Source: a virus
Length of the DNA stretch: 36,764 nucleotides
IMG/VR virus record: IMGVR_UViG_3300022221_000004
Span: 1 to 36,764 of that record
Reading direction: 5' to 3' (one strand)
A program made the position numbers and the translations under genes. Under the pieces are notes generated by a model. It made no database searches. It saw only the letters and a program-made list of their open reading frames with translations, and was not told where the DNA came from. Each line of letters starts with the position of its first letter. The first letter of the stretch is position 1. Positions 4,347-36,764 of the stretch are shown here, one piece after another.

Positions 4347-5218
4347 TGGCACGTACATTAGCAGAAATCGAAAGTGAAATAAAAGTCAAATTAAGGACAT
4401 ACACCTCTTTAGATGTGTTTAAGTTTCCAGAAGATGGCGGATCTTCTTTATCGGTCTTTAATATCTTTATTTCCGTTGCGGCAAATATGATATTCTTAGC
4501 CGATGTTATTTATGACATTCTAAAAACGGATATAACAGCAATTGCGGACAGGGCTTTTAGTGGAAATAGTGCATGGTTGAGAAATCAAATATTAGGCTTT
4601 CAGTTTGGCGATATTATAACCTTAGATTCTGACTTTGTGCCAGTTTATGCCGTTCCCGATGTATCAAAACAGATAATTACAAGGGTTGCTATTATAGACC
4701 TAGAAAACGGAGGGATAAGCATAAAAGTAGCAAAGGGAGTAGTTCCTACCCTAGCACCTCTAACCACGCCAGAATTAGAGGCCGTTAAAGACTATTATTA
4801 TGGTACGACAACAGCCGAAGGAATTGGATTTGCAGGGATAACAGCCAACTTTATAAGCCTTAACCCTGACAGAATGAAGGTCGGGGCTACCATACATTAC
4901 TTAGGCCAATTCGCAAGCGCAACGGTAAAGACCAACGTAATAACAGCTATAGATAACTTCTTTGCTACGTTTGCAGATACCGCATTTGACGGCACAGTAT
5001 TTATGATAAGATTAACGGACGCTATACAGGCCGTTGACGGAGTTTCAAGGGTGGAATATACAGAGGTGAAGGCTAGAGATGCAGCAACGCCATACGCAAG
5101 CGCAGCAAGTGTAGATTTTCAAGGCTTTTATAATACATTGGCTGGGTATCTAATTAGTGAGGATACAGTTGCACAAACATTGAACGATACAATAGTCATG
5201 CAACTAGAAACAGTATGA
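4346..5218 (+). CDS. Baseplate protein, probable gpJ/Mu gp47-like
   Basis: A 290-residue protein starting at a TAATG overlap. The N-terminal helices (residues 1-90) end in 'WLRNQILGFQFGD', followed by strand-rich segments, and the C-terminal part has 'VITAIDNFFATFADTAFDGTVF' and 'DAIQAVDGVSRVEYTEV'. That order (helical start, then 'xxxAIxxYF...L...I..VxGV') is seen in baseplate wedge J-like proteins of contractile tails. It is followed with an ATGA overlap by an I-like gene, the usual neighbour. The assignment is by pattern, without alignment. Confidence 0.55.
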   Translation: MARTLAEIESEIKVKLRTYTSLDVFKFPEDGGSSLSVFNIFISVAANMIFLADVIYDILKTDITAIADRAFSGNSAWLRNQILGFQFGDIITLDSDFVPVYAVPDVSKQIITRVAIIDLENGGISIKVAKGVVPTLAPLTTPELEAVKDYYYGTTTAEGIGFAGITANFISLNPDRMKVGATIHYLGQFASATVKTNVITAIDNFFATFADTAFDGTVFMIRLTDAIQAVDGVSRVEYTEVKARDAATPYASAASVDFQGFYNTLAGYLISEDTVAQTLNDTIVMQLETV

Positions 5219-23773: not shown

Positions 23774-24154
23774 ATGGCAACTTATAGCGAACTATCACCA
23801 TTGGAACTAGACGAGGCAACAGATGAAAACGCATGGGAACTAATTGACTTCTTAAATGAAGATGGCAAAATAATGTCATTTGATTGTGATGTTAATTCCC
23901 ATAGACAACCAGGTGCAGGGCTGGCAGGTGAAACGATAGTTATAATTGATGTTATCATACCGTTGGCAGCTATCGACTACGCATGTGATCCAGAAGAAGA
24001 TATTAACAACCACTTTGAGGGTATGGCTTATGAGGAGCTAAACACAGAGCATGAGAAGCTAATACCAAAAGCCGAATTTATGGAATTAACAAATCCTCAA
24101 ATGGAGCAAAAAGCAACTATTGAGCAGTATAATAGATTTAATAAATTTTATTAG
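23774..24154 (+). CDS. Acidic hypothetical protein (126 aa)
   Basis: A 126-residue acidic protein, first gene after an internal promoter and directly before a methyltransferase gene. Notable segments are 'ENAWELIDFLNEDGK' and 'AGETIVIIDVIIPLAAIDYA' with two Cys. Strong negative charge is sometimes seen in DNA-mimic proteins, but there is no specific evidence for that here. Function unknown. Confidence 0.6.
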   Translation: MATYSELSPLELDEATDENAWELIDFLNEDGKIMSFDCDVNSHRQPGAGLAGETIVIIDVIIPLAAIDYACDPEEDINNHFEGMAYEELNTEHEKLIPKAEFMELTNPQMEQKATIEQYNRFNKFY

Positions 24155-24155
24155 T

Positions 24156-24767
24156 ATGAATGTATTAAACGGATATGCTGGCCTAGGAGGGAACGCTAAA
24201 TATTGGCAAGATTGCAATGTTGTAGCAGTTGAGAAAGACAGCAAAATAGCAGGAGTTTACAAAACAAATAATGCTAAACATAAAGTAATTATAGGCGATG
24301 TTATTGACCACTTGCTTAATAATTATCAAGATTATGATTTTATTTGGTTGTCTCCACCCTGTCAGGCAAATACAAGAATGATAAGAAGTGGCAGGAATAG
24401 AAAGCCAAGACTTCCAAGCTTAGAGTTATACGAGTTAAAAATATTTCTTGACTATAATTTTGACGGCAAATATGTTATAGAGAATGTTATCCCATATTAT
24501 GACCCACCAATCCATCCAACGGCAAAAATCGGCAGGCACTTGTTTTGGTCTAATTTCGATATATCAGATTTTAAAATGGAGCACCCTAAGAATTTTATAA
24601 ACATAGGCACGGCCAAAGGGTCAGAGCATCTAAAAGAGTGGTTAGGTATTAATTACGAGGGTAATATCTATTACGAGGGCAACCATGACCCATGCCAAGT
24701 ATTACGCAATTGCGTACACCCTAAAATTGGTAAACATGTATATGAATGCATGATTAAATCATTATAA
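24156..24767 (+). CDS. Compact DNA (cytosine-5) methyltransferase
   Basis: I start at ATG 24156; a TTG at 24120 lies within the previous gene. The 203-residue protein shows the SAM-binding motif I variant 'LNGYAGLGGNAKYW' (4-17), the catalytic motif 'SPPCQ' with Cys69, and 'VIENV' (motif VI, Glu109). It lacks a clear C-terminal QxRxR motif and recognition domain, so it is small for the family. It resembles phage-encoded minimal C5 methyltransferases that protect the genome from host restriction. It ends in TAATG. Confidence 0.8.
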   Translation: MNVLNGYAGLGGNAKYWQDCNVVAVEKDSKIAGVYKTNNAKHKVIIGDVIDHLLNNYQDYDFIWLSPPCQANTRMIRSGRNRKPRLPSLELYELKIFLDYNFDGKYVIENVIPYYDPPIHPTAKIGRHLFWSNFDISDFKMEHPKNFINIGTAKGSEHLKEWLGINYEGNIYYEGNHDPCQVLRNCVHPKIGKHVYECMIKSL

Positions 24768-25315: not shown

Positions 25316-26029
25316 ATGGCTGACAATAAAAAATCTTTTCTCCTTTATTGTGATTTAATACACACGATTGAGAAGATGCCAAAAGAAAAAGCTGGCGAGT
25401 TGTTTCTAACAATTTTAGAGTATGTAAATGATAAAAACCCAGAACCTAAAGACATGATAGTCTCGTTAGTTTTCGAGCCAATAAAGCAAAATTTAAAAAG
25501 AGATTTAAAGAAATATGAATCTATCGTTAACAGAAATAAGGTCAATGGAGCAAAAGGAGGCAGGCCAGCAAAACCCAAAAAACCCAGTGGGTTATTTGGA
25601 AACCCAAAGAAACCCAAAAAAGCCGATATAGATAATGATACAGATACAGATATAGTAAAAGAAAATAAAGAACAACTAAGGGAGGTTAAATTTTCTAAAG
25701 AAGTTGAAAATTGTTTTCTTGAATGCCTTTGCTTTTTTGAAAAACATTTACACCCCGCCGATCTGAAAGCTGAAGAAAGATGGAAGGACACTATTGACAA
25801 ATTAAACAGAATTGAAAAAATACCTTTTGAGCAAATTGTCACAATTGTAAGAAGAACCAAGGCTGACGATTTTTGGTCTAAGCAATTTCTAACCTTGCCA
25901 AAACTCAGGAAAAAGAACGGCGAGGGATTAATGTATATTTTAGTATTTAACGAAAGATTTAAAAATAATGGAAGAGATGAAATCAAACAACTTGCAAAAA
26001 TCGCAGTCGAGCAGTATCCAGACATTTAA
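25316..26029 (+). CDS. Replication initiation protein (DUF6291/lambda O-like role)
   Basis: A 237-residue protein. The N-terminal part (residues 1-75: 'FLLYCDLIHTIEKMPKEKAG', 'LVFEPIKQNLKRDL') resembles DUF6291-type phage replication proteins. A linker follows ('NGAKGGRPAKPKKPSG', 'GNPKKPKKADIDNDTDTD', residues 77-113) that carries DNA repeats in its coding sequence, and a C-terminal helical domain with 'FWSKQFLTLPKLRKKNGEGL' resembles helicase-loader/DnaD-type regions. Lambda O has the same layout: a DNA-binding domain, origin in the linker-coding DNA, then a helicase-recruiting domain. Confidence 0.68.
   Translation: MADNKKSFLLYCDLIHTIEKMPKEKAGELFLTILEYVNDKNPEPKDMIVSLVFEPIKQNLKRDLKKYESIVNRNKVNGAKGGRPAKPKKPSGLFGNPKKPKKADIDNDTDTDIVKENKEQLREVKFSKEVENCFLECLCFFEKHLHPADLKAEERWKDTIDKLNRIEKIPFEQIVTIVRRTKADDFWSKQFLTLPKLRKKNGEGLMYILVFNERFKNNGRDEIKQLAKIAVEQYPDI
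25572..25655 (+). other. Putative replication origin (iterons + GATANN repeats)
   Basis: AACCCA occurs in direct orientation at 25572, 25581, 25601 and 25611, plus one inverted TGGGTT (25588-25593) that forms a palindrome with its neighbour. Directly downstream, five GATANN hexamers (about 25625-25655) form an AT-rich tandem stretch that could be the unwinding element. All lie inside the initiator coding sequence, as in lambdoid origins. Confidence 0.55.
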
Positions 26030-27035: not shown

Positions 27036-28094
27036 ATGAAACATAGATTTAATTACGAATGGACTTTGAAAGATGCAAAGTTTACAAAAGATAAGGGAAC
27101 AGTTTTTAGTTGTTTTGCGTGTGGTGGCGGTTCTACTATGGGTTATAAATTAGCTGGTTTTGATGCATTAGGATGCAATGAGATTGACCCAAAGATGATA
27201 GAAGCATACAAAGCTAACCACAACCCAAAGTATGCTTATTTAGAGCCTATACAAACCTTTAAACTTAGAAAGGATTTACCCAAAGAATTATACAGCCTTG
27301 ATATTTTGGATGGTTCGCCACCTTGCAGTAGTTTTTCTATGGCTGGAAATCGTGAAAAAGATTGGGGAAAAGAAAAGAAATTTAGAGAAGGACAAGCAGA
27401 GCAGGTTTTGGATAACTTATTTTTTGATTTTATAGACCTTGCAAAAGAATTACAACCAAAAGTTGTAGTTGCTGAGAATGTAAAAGGATTACTGCAAGGA
27501 GATGCAAAGGAATATGTTAGAAAAATATACAGGGAATTTGATTTAGCCGGATACTATGTACAACACTTTTTAGTTGATGGCTCAAAAATGGGAGTGCCAC
27601 AAAAAAGAGAACGTGTATTTTTTATAGCATTTAGAAAAGATTTAGCTGAACCATTTTTAAAACAAATGGATTTATTTACGGTTGCTCCTGAAATAATAAT
27701 TGATTTTAAAGAGCCTGAAATAACATACAAAGAAATAAGACAAACTGAAGGCAATGAAAATGCACTTGGATTAAGCCCAATGATTAGAAAGTATTGGCTA
27801 CTTTGTGAAGCTGGGAATAGTTTTAGTAGTGTACACCCCAAAGGAAGTTACTTTAATGAAATTAAACTACACCCGGATAAAGTACTGCCAACGATTAGAG
27901 CAAATGGATTGCCTTATGATTATGAAATTGAAAGGACTTTGTTTGATGATGAATGTAAAAAGGCTGGAAGCTACCCAATGGACTATAATTTTTGTAGAAA
28001 CAAACCTGTTTACTTAATTGGTATGAGTGTACCACCAGTAATGACTGCACAAATAGCAACTGAGATTTATAACCAGTGGCTCAATTGCCTATAA
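27036..28094 (+). CDS. DNA (cytosine-5) methyltransferase, full length
   Basis: A 352-residue C5 methyltransferase with motifs in canonical order: motif I 'FSCFACGGGSTMG' (24-36), motif IV 'GSPPCSSFS' with catalytic Cys97, motif VI 'AENV' (Glu147), motif VIII 'QKRERVFFIAFR' (189-200), a target-recognition region (about 220-310) and motif X 'GMSVPPVMTAQIATEIYNQW' near the end. It transfers a methyl group from SAM to cytosine C5, presumably to escape restriction. It stands alone between a terminator and the first 46-bp repeat; no restriction enzyme gene is visible, so it is an orphan. Confidence 0.92.
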   Translation: MKHRFNYEWTLKDAKFTKDKGTVFSCFACGGGSTMGYKLAGFDALGCNEIDPKMIEAYKANHNPKYAYLEPIQTFKLRKDLPKELYSLDILDGSPPCSSFSMAGNREKDWGKEKKFREGQAEQVLDNLFFDFIDLAKELQPKVVVAENVKGLLQGDAKEYVRKIYREFDLAGYYVQHFLVDGSKMGVPQKRERVFFIAFRKDLAEPFLKQMDLFTVAPEIIIDFKEPEITYKEIRQTEGNENALGLSPMIRKYWLLCEAGNSFSSVHPKGSYFNEIKLHPDKVLPTIRANGLPYDYEIERTLFDDECKKAGSYPMDYNFCRNKPVYLIGMSVPPVMTAQIATEIYNQWLNCL

Positions 28095-28138
28095 CACATG
28101 GATAATAGTAATACTATTTACTGGCAGATAATGGGAAC
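28093..28138 (+). repeat. 46-bp dispersed element, copy 1 (with 15-codon ORF)
   Basis: Runs from AACAC to GGGAAC. It begins 1 bp inside the methyltransferase stop codon region and contains an ORF 28098-28145 encoding MDNSNTIYWQIMGTI. Same length as copies at 30573, 33865 and 35446, with no indels. Eighteen bases after the core the helicase N-half begins. Confidence 0.88.
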
Positions 28139-28155
28139 TATATAAAACAAAAAAC

Positions 28156-28653
28156 ATGGCAGAAATAATAAATTCTTTAAAAGATATATTAAACGGCAAT
28201 CAAAAGCTTACGGACGATAATTTTAAATTCAACAAGCCGTCGGACTTTGAGAAAGAGCTAGATTACTACGCAAAGCACGGGCAAACACACGGCACAACAA
28301 CACACTTTCATTCGCTTGATCCTTATTTAAAATGGCGAGATGGCTTTTTTTATGGCCTGACAGGCTATCCAGGTTGTTTTTATGGAGGACAGAAAGTCCA
28401 CACAAAAAGCGGTGTAAAATGCATCAAGGATATAAAGGCTGGTGAATACGTATTATCGCATAACCATAAGAACAAAGTCAATGAATGGCGCATGGTCACA
28501 GACACCCACAAATTCAAGGAGCACAAAGACCGTTTGTTTGAAATTAAGCTAAAGGATGGCACAAAAATAAGGGTAACAGAAAACCACGAGTTTTTTAATG
28601 GGCACAAGTATGTGAAAATTAAAGATATTTTGCTATCTTTAAATAAAAAATGA
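28156..28653 (+). CDS. DnaB-like helicase N-half with split-intein N-fragment
   Basis: A 165-residue protein. Residues 1-73 are N-extein, ending in 'FFYGLTGYPG', the first half of a Walker A loop. Cys74 (codon 28375-28377) is intein residue 1. The intein N-fragment (74-165) has block A (C...VHTKSGVKCIKDIKAG), and block B with the TxxH pattern in 'VTENHEFF' (Thr141, His144), then stops after 'KYVKIKDILLS'. On its own it lacks the GKS lysine and cannot bind ATP. It must ligate to the C-half at 29168 by trans-splicing. The stop overlaps the HNH gene by ATGA. Confidence 0.92.
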   Translation: MAEIINSLKDILNGNQKLTDDNFKFNKPSDFEKELDYYAKHGQTHGTTTHFHSLDPYLKWRDGFFYGLTGYPGCFYGGQKVHTKSGVKCIKDIKAGEYVLSHNHKNKVNEWRMVTDTHKFKEHKDRLFEIKLKDGTKIRVTENHEFFNGHKYVKIKDILLSLNKK

Positions 28654-29186
28654 AAAAAACGTGGAAAAGAATACCTAATTATAGGGGATACTTGGCCTCT
28701 TCTGAGGGTGAAATATTAACATTTAACTGGAAGGGTTCAGGCCAAAGAAGGGTAATGAAGCCAGCACTAGATAACTGCGGTTATATGAGAACAATGCTAA
28801 AGCGTAATGATGGTATAACACACACAATAAAAGTACACAGAATTATAGCGAGTGCCTTTATTCCTAATCCTGAAAATTTGCCACAAGTTAATCACTTGAA
28901 TGGGATTAGGAATGATAATAGGGTTAAAAACTTAGAATGGTGTACGGCCTCGCAAAATGCCAAGCACTCATACTTTTTAAAAAGAAGTTCACAAATTGGC
29001 GAGAAAAACCCAGCATCTATATTAACAGAAAAGGACGTTTTGGAGATAAGGGCAAATTATGTGTATGGGCGAAAGTCAAGACATGAGGCAGGCGAAACCA
29101 AAACACAAATAGCAAAGCGTTACGGATGTACCGTACACGCAATTAAAAGAGTAATACAAGGAACAACATGGAGGCACCTATTATAA
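28650..29186 (+). CDS. HNH homing endonuclease (NUMOD4) between intein halves
   Basis: A 178-residue protein. An N-terminal NUMOD4 module ('WKRIPNYRGYLASSEGEI', 5-22) precedes an HNH core: His63 in 'VHRIIASAF', 'VNHLNGIRNDN' with His82 and Asn90, 'NLEWCTASQNAKHS' (94-107). A helix-turn-helix near residues 151-176 ('KTQIAKRYGCTVHAIKRVIQ') probably reads DNA. It is in a different frame from both helicase halves and overlaps each (4 and 19 bases), so it is a free-standing gene and not part of a contiguous intein. It would cut alleles lacking the intein and spread the split gene. Confidence 0.9.
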   Translation: MKKTWKRIPNYRGYLASSEGEILTFNWKGSGQRRVMKPALDNCGYMRTMLKRNDGITHTIKVHRIIASAFIPNPENLPQVNHLNGIRNDNRVKNLEWCTASQNAKHSYFLKRSSQIGEKNPASILTEKDVLEIRANYVYGRKSRHEAGETKTQIAKRYGCTVHAIKRVIQGTTWRHLL

Positions 29187-30010
29187 ATATTGAAGATATT
29201 GAGTCGTTTAAGGAGATTGAATATGAGACAACCTACGATTTAACAGTTGAAGAAAACAGCAACTATTATTTAGCCACAGAATCAGCCCCTATATTGGTTC
29301 ATAATTCAGGAAAATCTTCTTTCTCAATTCAGCTAATATTAAACAGGGTAATTAAAGAGGGAGTGAAAGCTGCAATGTACACGCCAGAGAATTACCCAGT
29401 TGAGGACGTTGTGGAAGAATTGCTATTGATGTTTACAGGGAAACACCCTTCTTTTGGCCATAAAAGACAGCTAACAGATCAAGAAAGGAACGAGGCTATT
29501 AGTCACCTGTCAAAATACATAACTATTATTAGCTCTGATAAAACGCCATGTGTTAATGATGTGCTGAATGCATTCAATGTTCTGAACGACAAGAAAGACC
29601 ATAAAATATTCTTAATCGACCCGTTTAATTCGTTGGTAGAGGGCACAAGCCAAAATATGGTATCAGAGTACTTAAAAATGGCATTGACAGAATTTAAGTT
29701 GTTTGCTGTTAATTCTCAATCTTCGCTAGTAGTTGCAGAACACCCAAAGGCAGCAGATAATTTGGATTCAAGGCCTGAGCCGTCGCCCTCCAGGATGTAT
29801 GGCGGATCGATGTGGTGGAACAAGTGCGATTGTATATTCTCTGTAGATAGAGACATGTTTGACTCAACAAATCCAGAGGTAATAATAAAGGTTTGGAAGA
29901 TGAAAAAACAAAGGCTTATGGGTCAGCCAGGGGAAGAAATATTATATTACGATAAAGAAAAATGTCAATATCATGAGCGCAACAACTTTGATTTGGGCAA
30001 TGAGGGTTAA
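29168..30010 (+). CDS. DnaB-like helicase C-half with split-intein C-fragment
   Basis: A 280-residue protein. Residues 1-46 are the intein C-fragment, with block F 'TTYDLTVEENSNYYLA' and block G 'ILVHN' ending in His45-Asn46; Ser47 is the +1 residue (codon 29306-29308). The C-extein begins SGKSS, completing the Walker A loop as GYPG-SGKS. Downstream are 'YTPENYP' (Glu74), Walker B 'KIFLIDPF' (Asp151), 'VVAEHPK' (His192) and 'RMYGGSMWWNKCDCIFSVDR', in the order of DnaB/T7-type helicases. The spliced protein would be 307 residues and act as the replicative helicase. In block F the usual His is replaced by Ser31. Confidence 0.92.
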   Translation: MEAPIINIEDIESFKEIEYETTYDLTVEENSNYYLATESAPILVHNSGKSSFSIQLILNRVIKEGVKAAMYTPENYPVEDVVEELLLMFTGKHPSFGHKRQLTDQERNEAISHLSKYITIISSDKTPCVNDVLNAFNVLNDKKDHKIFLIDPFNSLVEGTSQNMVSEYLKMALTEFKLFAVNSQSSLVVAEHPKAADNLDSRPEPSPSRMYGGSMWWNKCDCIFSVDRDMFDSTNPEVIIKVWKMKKQRLMGQPGEEILYYDKEKCQYHERNNFDLGNEG

Positions 30011-30373: not shown

Positions 30374-30574
30374 ATGAAACAACATATATATTTTAGAGAA
30401 GATTTACAAGAACTAAAAACCCTACCAATTAATGAACCTAACTGTTATTACTTAGGCGAACATGAAAAAAAAGAACTGGACACATTTAGAAAGTTTCTTA
30501 AAATTAGGCCATCTTCATTTATAGAACTAAGTAGGAAAGTGAAAAATGGTGACTTTAGACCTAATGGGGGGTAA
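30374..30574 (+). CDS. Small hypothetical protein (66 aa)
   Basis: A 66-residue protein with 'LGEHEKKELDTFRKFLKIRP' and a basic end. It lies between a hairpin-rich gap and repeat copy 2. No family is recognised. Confidence 0.5.
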   Translation: MKQHIYFREDLQELKTLPINEPNCYYLGEHEKKELDTFRKFLKIRPSSFIELSRKVKNGDFRPNGG

Positions 30575-30618
30575 CACATGGATAATAGTAATACCGTTTA
30601 TTGGCGGATAATGGGAAC
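30573..30618 (+). repeat. 46-bp dispersed element, copy 2
   Basis: AACAC to GGGAAC, with an ORF 30578-30631 encoding MDNSNTVYWRIMGTNEN. The core begins inside the stop codon of the preceding gene, and the following gene starts at 30621, inside the 3' end of this ORF. Confidence 0.88.
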
Positions 30619-30620
30619 AA

Positions 30621-30875
30621 ATGAAAATTAAAGTTAAAGCGCACAATGCGCAAGATAAGCAAGGCACGGAAGACGACAGCGACAACTATAGGCCGTTGCT
30701 CATGAAAGACATTGTGCACGGCCTAGAATACTACGTTATCAATGAAGTCGACGCATTTACTTACGTCAAGTCTAAAGTCGATTACACGCCCTTTAAATGC
30801 AAAAACAGCATGGCTAGATATATGAGATATTTTAAAGTAATGATTAAAAATAAATTTATATTCGTTAAGAAATGA
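30621..30875 (+). CDS. Basic hypothetical protein (84 aa)
   Basis: An 84-residue protein beginning 3 bp after the repeat core and overlapping the DUF1367-like gene by ATGA. It is rich in Lys and Tyr ('DYTPFKCKNSMARYMRYFK'). No motif is recognised. Confidence 0.55.
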   Translation: MKIKVKAHNAQDKQGTEDDSDNYRPLLMKDIVHGLEYYVINEVDAFTYVKSKVDYTPFKCKNSMARYMRYFKVMIKNKFIFVKK

Positions 30876-33586: not shown

Positions 33587-33856
33587 ATGGATAACCTTAA
33601 TAAAGAAAACGAAACTAAGCCATGCACTATACATGATGTTGGCAGTAGTTGTACTCTTTATCACGGGACTGAATTTGGAGTTGAGGAACTTAATTTAATA
33701 CTATTAGTCAACTTTAAATTAAACAAAATTATGAGAATTGATTTACACAACCCATCTATTAGAATTATAGACATGCCTAAAAACGGAATACCAAATCACT
33801 TTAAAGAAATAGATAATAATGAATTTAACAGGCTTATTGAGAAATACCGATCTTAA
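33587..33856 (+). CDS. Small accessory protein (89 aa)
   Basis: An 89-residue protein. The start has 'CTIHDVGSSCTLYHGTEFG' with two Cys, and the end is a short helix. No family is recognised. Confidence 0.52.
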   Translation: MDNLNKENETKPCTIHDVGSSCTLYHGTEFGVEELNLILLVNFKLNKIMRIDLHNPSIRIIDMPKNGIPNHFKEIDNNEFNRLIEKYRS

Positions 33857-33864
33857 TTACTGCC

Positions 33865-33910
33865 AACACATGGATAATAGTAATACCGTTTATTGGCAGA
33901 TAATGGGAAC
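33865..33910 (+). repeat. 46-bp dispersed element, copy 3
   Basis: AACAC to GGGAAC, with an ORF 33870-33917 encoding MDNSNTVYWQIMGTN. It lies 9 bp after a stop codon and 19 bp before the next ATG. Confidence 0.88.
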
Positions 33911-33928
33911 AAATTAAATAAAACAAAC

Positions 33929-35169: not shown

Positions 35170-35447
35170 TGGTTTGGGTAAATATAGTTCAGGATTTAAA
35201 GAAAAATATTATGAGCAAGTTTAAAGCAAGATTATACGAGAAAATGCAAGAGGCTAAGATGCAGCCTGAATTAGATTTACCTGTTGTTATAGGTCGTCTT
35301 TCTATTTTAGCTGATAAATTCAAAGATGAATCAGATAGCACAATCCCACTACCTATGGAGATAGAGGAGCGAAGATACAAACAGGGGAAACAAGAAGCAT
35401 ACGCACACGCATACATTGAATTGAAAAGGTTAATAGATGACCTATAA
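35169..35447 (+). CDS. Hypothetical protein (92 aa)
   Basis: A 92-residue helical protein. A later ATG at 35211 would give a shorter form (78 residues). The C-terminal helix contains 'KQGKQEAYAHAYIELKRLID'. It ends in CTA TAA CAC ATGG, identical to the end of the methyltransferase gene, and is followed directly by repeat copy 4. Confidence 0.52.
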   Translation: MVWVNIVQDLKKNIMSKFKARLYEKMQEAKMQPELDLPVVIGRLSILADKFKDESDSTIPLPMEIEERRYKQGKQEAYAHAYIELKRLIDDL

Positions 35448-35491
35448 CACATGGATAAGCGTAATACCATTTATTGGCGGATAATGGGAAC
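35446..35491 (+). repeat. 46-bp dispersed element, copy 4
   Basis: AACAC to GGGAAC, with an ORF 35451-35498 encoding MDKRNTIYWRIMGTI. This is the most diverged copy. It lies between the accessory block and the terminase operon. Confidence 0.88.
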
Positions 35492-35525
35492 TATTTAATG
35501 CCGCTACCATTAAATAAAAATTAAC

Positions 35526-35536: not shown

Positions 35537-35977
35537 ATGCCAGCGACAAAAGGAAATCAGTTTTGGAAGGCCAGAAGCTCACACGGCAGGAAGCCAATAT
35601 ATAGCGACCCAGAAAAATTAATGGACGCTTGTGAGCAGTATTTCCAATGGGTAGAAGATAACCCACTGAAGGAACAACGAGCAGCCCAGTACCAGGGGCA
35701 ATGGGTAAAAACAGAGGTTAATAAGATGCGAGCAATGACAATAGGAGGGCTTTGCTTGTTTATTGGTGTCGACATAACAACATGGATAAAATACCGTGAA
35801 AACAAAGATTTTATCCATATCACAAAGGAAGTCGACTCTATTATTAGAAATCAAAAGTTCACAGGAGCGGCCGCAGACTTGCTTAATCCCAACATTATAG
35901 CTAGGGATTTGGGGCTAACTGATAAGAAAGAAGTAGAAACAAAAAGCATAACGGTAAAGCCATTCAATGAGGATTAA
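35537..35977 (+). CDS. terS: Terminase small subunit
   Basis: I start at ATG 35537 (MPATKGNQFW); the frame also has a TTG at 35531, inside the -7 box. The 146-residue protein begins with 'KGNQFWKARSSHGRKPIYSD', then 'MDACEQYFQW', a helix-turn-helix-like 'TIGGLCLFIGVDITTWIKYR' and a C-terminal part with 'AADLLNPNIIARDLGLTDK'. This is a common plan for small terminases, which select and bind the packaging site. It couples to the large subunit by TAATG. Confidence 0.85.
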   Translation: MPATKGNQFWKARSSHGRKPIYSDPEKLMDACEQYFQWVEDNPLKEQRAAQYQGQWVKTEVNKMRAMTIGGLCLFIGVDITTWIKYRENKDFIHITKEVDSIIRNQKFTGAAADLLNPNIIARDLGLTDKKEVETKSITVKPFNED

Positions 35978-36764
35978 TGGACATAAACTGGGATTGGAAT
36001 ATTGTTAATAAGAAATTCAAGCCACTACATAAGAAGACCCACAGATATGTAATAACATACGGAGGGCGTGGTTCTTCTAAATCAGACTACGCAGCAAAAC
36101 AAATGATTTATAATTGCCTTGCACATAATCATTTTAGGTGCATAATGATTAGGAAGGTTCAGGCCAAAGTAAAAGGTTCATGCTATCAGAACATCAAAGA
36201 CCTTATTGATGAAATGGGGCTAAGGGATTATTTTAGATTTGCCTCAACACCCACGCCAAGGATAGAGTGCATAAACGGCAATTTCTTTGTTGGTGCTGGC
36301 CTAGATGATACCAGCAGCATCAAATCTATAAAAGACCCTACATGTGTTTGGTGGGAGGAGGACATTCCAGACGAGGCCGATTTTATCACAATAACAACTT
36401 CAATAAGAACTTTAAAAGCTGATTTGCTACAGGAGATATTTAGCATTAATCCAGAATGTGAGGGCGACTATAAGGAAAACTGGTTTTATAAACGATTCTT
36501 TGATAAGCATTATAGCGAAGGGGAATTAAGCTTTGAAGATGTTGTAACCGTAGAGATGAACGGCAACCAGATAGAGCTACCATACATAGTGCATCACTCT
36601 ACCCATGAAGATAATCCACATCTTCCCGACCAATACAGGGCAATGCTGGAAGACTTAAAGAGAACAAATCCTTATTATTACACAGTGTACACACAAGGGA
36701 AATGGGGAACAAAAGTAGTGACTGGCAGATTTTACCAGGAGTTTTCGCAATCAATACACACTTA
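35977..36764 (+). CDS. terL: Terminase large subunit, N-terminal part (ATPase domain)
   Basis: This is the 5' part of the large terminase, continuing at base 1 of the window. It shares the A of its ATG with the terS stop (TAATG). The Walker A loop 'GGRGSSKS' is at residues 29-36 and the Walker B/catalytic segment 'CVWWEED' at about 123-129. The ATPase drives DNA into the capsid. The joined protein is 478 residues, a normal length. The last 127 bases duplicate the window start. Confidence 0.93.
   Translation, partial: MDINWDWNIVNKKFKPLHKKTHRYVITYGGRGSSKSDYAAKQMIYNCLAHNHFRCIMIRKVQAKVKGSCYQNIKDLIDEMGLRDYFRFASTPTPRIECINGNFFVGAGLDDTSSIKSIKDPTCVWWEEDIPDEADFITITTSIRTLKADLLQEIFSINPECEGDYKENWFYKRFFDKHYSEGELSFEDVVTVEMNGNQIELPYIVHHSTHEDNPHLPDQYRAMLEDLKRTNPYYYTVYTQGKWGTKVVTGRFYQEFSQSIHT
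36638..36764. repeat. Terminal direct repeat, right copy (circular-contig overlap)
   Basis: Identical to bases 1-127. Removing one copy leaves a 36,637-bp circle in which terL is intact. Confidence 0.93.

Follow-up and report, generated by a model that had tools for sequence, protein, structure and literature searches.

How can a helicase be produced from a gene that is cut in two within its ATP-binding P-loop, with another gene lying between the pieces? This question is raised by positions 28156–30010 of the IMG/VR virus record IMGVR_UViG_3300022221_000004, the whole of which (36,764 nucleotides) was analyzed and is called the window below. An initial annotation, made from the letters alone, had proposed that a naturally split intein interrupts the helicase and that an endonuclease gene separates its halves. 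This interpretation was supported, since both broken ends matched intein profiles, the host part matched helicases, each half held an incomplete P-loop, the three parts travelled together, and empty alleles were found for sister elements. We consider it highly probable that the locus is a mobile fractured-gene cassette, in which a class 1 split intein flanks a NUMOD4-HNH gene within the P-loop of a replicative helicase.

The split intein and its host helicase

The locus consisted of three open reading frames (ORFs) on the + strand, each in a different frame and mutually overlapping (28156–28653, 28650–29186, and 29168–30010). The positions, the three frames, and the ATGA and 19-nucleotide overlaps agreed with the initial annotation in all details checked, and the same lengths of the intein fragments, 92 and 46 residues, were recovered from the ORF reading. 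The features are as follows.

28156–28653, + strand: N-half gene, 165 residues (N-extein, N-intein, and stop); an ORF matching TIGR01445 and Pfam Hint above cut-off
28156–28374, + strand: N-extein, 73 residues, C-terminal GYPG
28363–28374, + strand: first half of Walker A (GYPG), from the joined-extein alignment
28375–28650, + strand: N-intein, 92 residues
28375–28377, + strand: Cys1 (block A), start of the N-intein
28576–28587, + strand: block B TENH, within the N-intein
28650–29186, + strand: NUMOD4-HNH homing endonuclease-type gene, 178 residues, third frame; HNH_3, NUMOD4, phrog_59
28650–28653, + strand: ATGA overlap, HNH start over the N-half stop
29168–29186, + strand: HNH/C-half overlap, 19 nucleotides; HNH C-terminus TWRHLL, then stop
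29168–30010, + strand: C-half gene, 280 residues (C-intein, C-extein, and stop); TIGR01443, phrog_239/5482
29168–29305, + strand: C-intein, 46 residues; block F (TYDLTVEENSNYYL) and block G with terminal His-Asn
29300–29305, + strand: block G His-Asn, end of the C-intein
29306–30007, + strand: C-extein, 234 residues, N-terminal SGKSS
29306–29308, + strand: +1 Ser, first C-extein residue
29306–29317, + strand: second half of Walker A (SGKS), from the joined-extein alignment

Residues 74–147 of the N-half matched TIGR01445 (intein_Nterm; 29.5 bits, cut-off 24.5), and residues 72–147 matched Pfam Hint (37.6 bits, cut-off 29.7). Residues 22–47 of the C-half matched TIGR01443 (intein_Cterm; 27.4 bits, cut-off 15.6); each fragment thus passed a curated cut-off in the intein-profile search. 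The class 1 motifs were present on the N-side, namely block A with Cys1 (CFYGGQ...) and block B (VTENHEF), and on the C-side, where the His-Asn of block G is followed by a Ser nucleophile (ILVHN/S). Cys1 and TENH were invariant among 10 aligned N-intein members and HN among 9 aligned C-intein members. The N-intein was 47–62% identical to the N-inteins of nine aligned relatives, and a sequence-profile search of the PDB with the N-intein family ranked the gp41-1 intein first (E = 5.7e-9). With its halves encoded by separate ORFs, the intein has the layout of a naturally split one.

The C-extein matched phrog_239 (DNA primase/helicase, E = 2.3e-21) and also phrog_5482, and the host part is a twinkle/gp4-type helicase domain. 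Joining the exteins (73 + 234) gives a protein of 307 residues that reads GYPG/SGKS at the junction, the complete Walker A loop already noted in the initial annotation. The joined extein aligned without a gap at this junction to the proteins of PJN03, FCOV-S2, Planktothrix phage Pag-Yong1, and other phages, and uninterrupted phage homologues read GAPGSGKS, GRPGAGKS, or GYPQSGKT there. Removal of the intein thus restores the exact uninterrupted host protein. With the P-loop divided between the two halves, a working helicase would be expected to require their ligation.

The ORF between the halves, which had been read as an HNH/NUMOD4 gene, contained both the nuclease (Pfam HNH_3, 37.6 bits, cut-off 24.8) and the NUMOD4 DNA-binding motif (25 bits, cut-off 23.4). 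It also matched phrog_59 (E = 6e-44) and was 50–60% identical to the HNH proteins of seven aligned cassette relatives. The ATG of the C-half combines the third base, A, of one HNH codon with the TGG of the C-terminal Trp of HNH. This geometry was found in nearly all split loci (exceptions, L152 and L162), in which HNH usually ended in W-x-H-(L/I/V) or a variant and the overlap with the C-half was short. Furthermore, the frame of the C-half relative to HNH was constant in all split loci except L162. Among free-standing HNH relatives, 20 of the 48 checked had a W-x-H-type ending, about half of these with an A preceding the TGG; an invading HNH gene could, therefore, supply a ready-made start codon for the downstream half.

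The cassette in other phages

A scan of IMG/VR with the HNH protein gave 80 loci, and scans with N- and C-intein alignments followed. One of the 80 loci, L012, carried the whole arrangement in a terminase large subunit (TerL) gene, with the junctions FGGSG/C... and ...LVHN/SGKSQ; the assignment to terminase is based on the related L104 and the L012 C-half sequence. The window and L012 were 54% identical in the N-intein, 58% in the C-intein with SGKS, and 55% in HNH. None of 79 further viral loci holding the closest HNH relatives had the split intein, and therefore most NUMOD4-HNH genes live elsewhere.

In total, 27 distinct cassette loci were identified, comprising the window and 26 loci of uncultivated viruses from many metagenome samples. 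Beyond these, one locus was split without HNH (L113) and three were contiguous (L142, L155, and L163). The host genes encoded primase-helicases, DnaB-like helicases, Terminase_3 TerL, and other TerL families, and all insertions lay at one place of Walker A, directly before (S/C)(G/S)K(S/T). The initial annotation had included neither the terminase and DnaB-like hosts nor the origin of the C-half start codon in the endonuclease gene. The terminase large subunit gene of the window (35977–36762 and 6–776) is uninterrupted at its P-loop (GGRGSSKS), yet this gene is broken by cassette relatives in other phages.

When the cassette was removed from the primase-helicase gene of L102, the 1,728 joined bases aligned with the uninterrupted gene of L187 at 93% nucleotide identity without gaps; the 921-bp insertion is therefore exact and without duplication. 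L111 and the empty L200 likewise aligned without gaps (79% over 1,281 bases). The cassettes of L102 and L103 were 85% identical, and their host genes were approximately 65–69% identical where alignable and otherwise unalignable. Between L101 and L102, identity was 98% in the cassette, 97.8% in the preceding 180 bases, and 86% on the following side, as expected if a recent transfer occurred with one-sided co-conversion. The window element could be aligned to L102, L092, and L012 at 64–69% over part of its length, and nucleotide similarity of the flanking genes was undetectable.

The tree of the combined N- and C-inteins was broadly concordant with the HNH tree, and three or more switches between host genes have to be assumed. 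The ratio of nonsynonymous to synonymous substitution (dN/dS) was mostly 0.00–0.16 for the N-intein, HNH, C-intein, and host gene or C-extein, with higher values of 0.31 (the maximum) and 0.25 in the N-intein and 0.20 in the C-intein; these Nei-Gojobori values are approximate, with several comparisons saturated at synonymous sites, and refer to pairs of sister loci, the window element having no relative close enough. That the cassette is a mobile, functional unit is indicated by the empty alleles, by elements that resemble each other far more than their host genes do, and by purifying selection in the pairs that were compared.

Several loci also suggest loss of the endonuclease. In the sister cassette L095, HNH was broken by a stop (4703–4716) and the intein halves were intact, as would be expected of a decay stage in a homing cycle. 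The HNH-less L113 (split) and L142 (contiguous) retained TWKHL codons in the lost HNH frame. In the tree, L113 fell within a set of HNH-bearing loci (starred support), and the contiguous L155 nested with the HNH-bearing L160 and L161. A possible relic of HNH codons in L155 was weak and is not relied on; its place in the tree is. The simplest reading is that HNH was lost and the halves were then re-fused in L142 and L155. For L142, whose placement is only moderately supported (86/81), the reverse direction, with the contiguous form first, may also apply. An AlphaFold model of L142 showed a HINT fold (mean predicted confidence, pLDDT, 90.6), and its sole segment under pLDDT 50 was residues 96–100, at the split point. 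Foldseek with this model retrieved the gp41-1, Npu DnaB, Npu DnaE, and NrdJ-1 inteins from the PDB.

Proposed mechanism and alternative explanations

We propose that one mRNA would yield all three overlapping ORFs, with translation of the C-half being coupled and the endonuclease gene providing its start through the A and TGG of the conserved terminal Trp. The intein fragments of 92 and 46 residues would then associate and trans-splice via Cys1, TENH, His-Asn, and the +1 Ser, releasing a 307-residue helicase with a complete Walker A. In co-infecting phages, HNH would cut P-loop alleles that lack the cassette, and these would be converted when repair copied the whole cassette, a mobility that the relatives show. 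After loss of the endonuclease, the intein would persist as a split or re-fused mini-intein. Whether the 27 loci form one P-loop-specialized family is an evenly balanced matter: such a family would spread by ectopic homing into the SGK[ST] coding sequence of dissimilar ATPase genes, the endonuclease start codon creating the split and its loss sometimes reversing the fracture.

Several observations weigh against the proposed mobile, splicing cassette. The His of block F is usual, though not universal, in inteins; the window intein has Ser at this position (NSNYYL), which might slow Asn cyclization. Uninterrupted relatives of the helicase, sought as the initial annotation had suggested, were found in part: phage homologues aligned without gaps, but there was no near-identical empty allele of the window helicase, the best homologues being 23–29% identical over the aligned part, and IMG/VR held no close relatives of the window C-half. 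The clean empty-site evidence accordingly comes from a sister element, not from the window helicase. In addition, the cassette was seen in metagenomic contigs only, and none was found among 50,697 phage records with the queries used. When phage isolates were searched by tblastn with N-inteins from three loci (the window, L092, and L160), the matches listed included no cassette member and were mostly inteins of S16-type UvsW and of ribonucleotide reductase. As to where the cassette resides, one scan of the GTDB genome contigs with an N-intein alignment gave only three weak archaeal matches and no cassette, leaving a bacterial or prophage home unsupported. Plasmids yielded mostly HINT-domain proteins.

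The Ser at block F also bears on the possibility that the element is dead or decaying, that is, recently inserted, with splicing or endonuclease lost and helicase function supplied elsewhere. The N-extein of 73 residues, without the primase domain present in relatives, would fit such decay. However, Ser recurs at this position in L012, L105, L142, and L163, flavobacterial phages likewise carry a short helicase without primase, all three ORFs are free of stops and frameshifts, and the HNH and intein motifs are intact. No second helicase was found among the genes sampled, which represent the part of the genome's ORFs that was searched. Decay is very unlikely on these grounds. We give slightly less weight still to a gene that an endonuclease merely broke, leaving two polypeptides that assemble non-covalently without splicing. 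The ribonucleotide reductase of Aeh1 is said to be encoded in pieces that assemble in this manner. The free-standing HNH gene between two helicase fragments agrees with this explanation, and PMC10448857 refers to a case of this kind. Against it, intein sequence exceeds the curated cut-offs at both broken ends, purifying selection acts on the intein parts in those sister loci that were compared, Cys1, TENH, and His-Asn are retained in the aligned relatives, and the break lies within a P-loop, which is unlikely to function as separate ends.

Homopolymer A runs close to the N-half stop, together with the contiguous relatives L142, L155, and L163, might suggest instead that the intein is contiguous, contains HNH as an in-frame domain, and was broken by sequencing or assembly frameshifts. 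The three-ORF layout, with HNH and the C-half each having its own start, is found again at 26 further distinct loci, the frame of the C-half relative to HNH is constant in all loci but one, and dN/dS is low in the separate frames of compared pairs. Because these loci retain the same split, it is not, as judged from sequence, a frameshift or assembly error; the independent loci refute this explanation in practice, and its probability is negligible. The fractured gene with a split intein and its endonuclease remains our favored reading. Within this one lineage we found cassette loci, exact empty alleles, a broken HNH, an HNH-less split, and an apparently re-fused mini-intein with an endonuclease relic, so that successive steps of the homing cycle can be traced for a fractured gene. 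The family thus bears on the origin, spread, and loss of split inteins. Phage enzymes of replication and packaging would come to depend on the predicted trans-splicing, and the 27 natural split inteins of the family at P-loop junctions are candidates for trans-splicing tools.

Known systems and genome context

Dassa et al. (2009, Nucleic Acids Res. 37:2560; cited in PMC10448857 and PMC6892783) reportedly described, from environmental sequence, conserved phage enzyme genes fractured by a split intein and a free-standing endonuclease; a Vsr-like endonuclease is said to occur in part of these loci and not to be required. The window likewise has a split enzyme gene with a free-standing endonuclease between the halves. 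In contrast, its endonuclease is of the HNH_3 and NUMOD4 type and not Vsr-like, its ORFs overlap such that the endonuclease gene forms the C-half start codon, and cassettes of this type occupy the P-loop of several non-orthologous genes. The split intein gp41-1 (PDB 6qaz and 6riz), the top PDB profile match of the N-intein family and one of the closest in fold to L142, shows only remote sequence similarity to the cassette N-inteins, and its insertion site and junctions differ from those of the cassette.

In Salmonella phage S16, uvsW is fractured (L002, 2838–5564): an N-intein ends gp114, a C-intein starts gp115, and gp114.1 lies between. This is a fractured helicase as in the window and, among isolates, the one that matches the window N-half most closely, but its break lies at the DE/CH motif and not at Walker A, and gp114.1 has weak NUMOD3/TnsA-like matches and no HNH. 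The S16 genes are annotated in the record merely as helicase and hypothetical protein; N-halves similar to the S16 type were seen in L115–L127. HNH between split-intein halves is known from the DNA polymerase B of phage MIJ3 (orf153–155; PMC6892783); the host there is PolB, whereas the window host is a P-loop ATPase, and the likeness is one of arrangement. Contiguous P-loop inteins occur in TerL, DnaB, and RecA, for example in mycobacteriophage TerL (PMC5050341; PMC5874633). Like the window intein, they are inserted in Walker A, in ATPases of phages or bacteria, but they are unsplit, whereas the window intein is split with a separate HNH gene; their classic site is between Lys and Thr, and the window site is two residues before Lys. 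Fractured genes with split inteins, HNH between intein halves, and P-loop inteins in phage terminases are hence already known. New with respect to the open-licence PubMed Central literature that was covered are the family of cassettes, its specificity for the P-loop, the overlap at the start codon, and the re-fusion that the relatives suggest, and an earlier description may exist.

The window carries an exact direct terminal repeat of 127 nucleotides (1–127 and 36638–36764) and probably represents the whole genome of a phage, 36,637 bp in length and either circular or circularly permuted. A repeat of 75 nucleotides occurs in four copies (28080–28154, 30560–30634, 33852–33926, and 35433–35507), one of which immediately precedes the fractured helicase. 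A mini-ORF of 15–17 residues (MDNSNTIYWQIMGTI, MDNSNTVYWRIMGTNEN, MDNSNTVYWQIMGTN, and MDKRNTIYWRIMGTI) is contained in each copy, with several silent changes. The mini-ORF had no exact pattern match in the viral_contigs collection and no Rfam match; a leader peptide, regulatory DNA, and a microprotein are all candidates. Two genes similar to DNA cytosine methyltransferases were found at 24120–24767 and 27036–28094, the second just upstream of the helicase, and a match to a DnaD-like helicase loader was located at 25316–26029.
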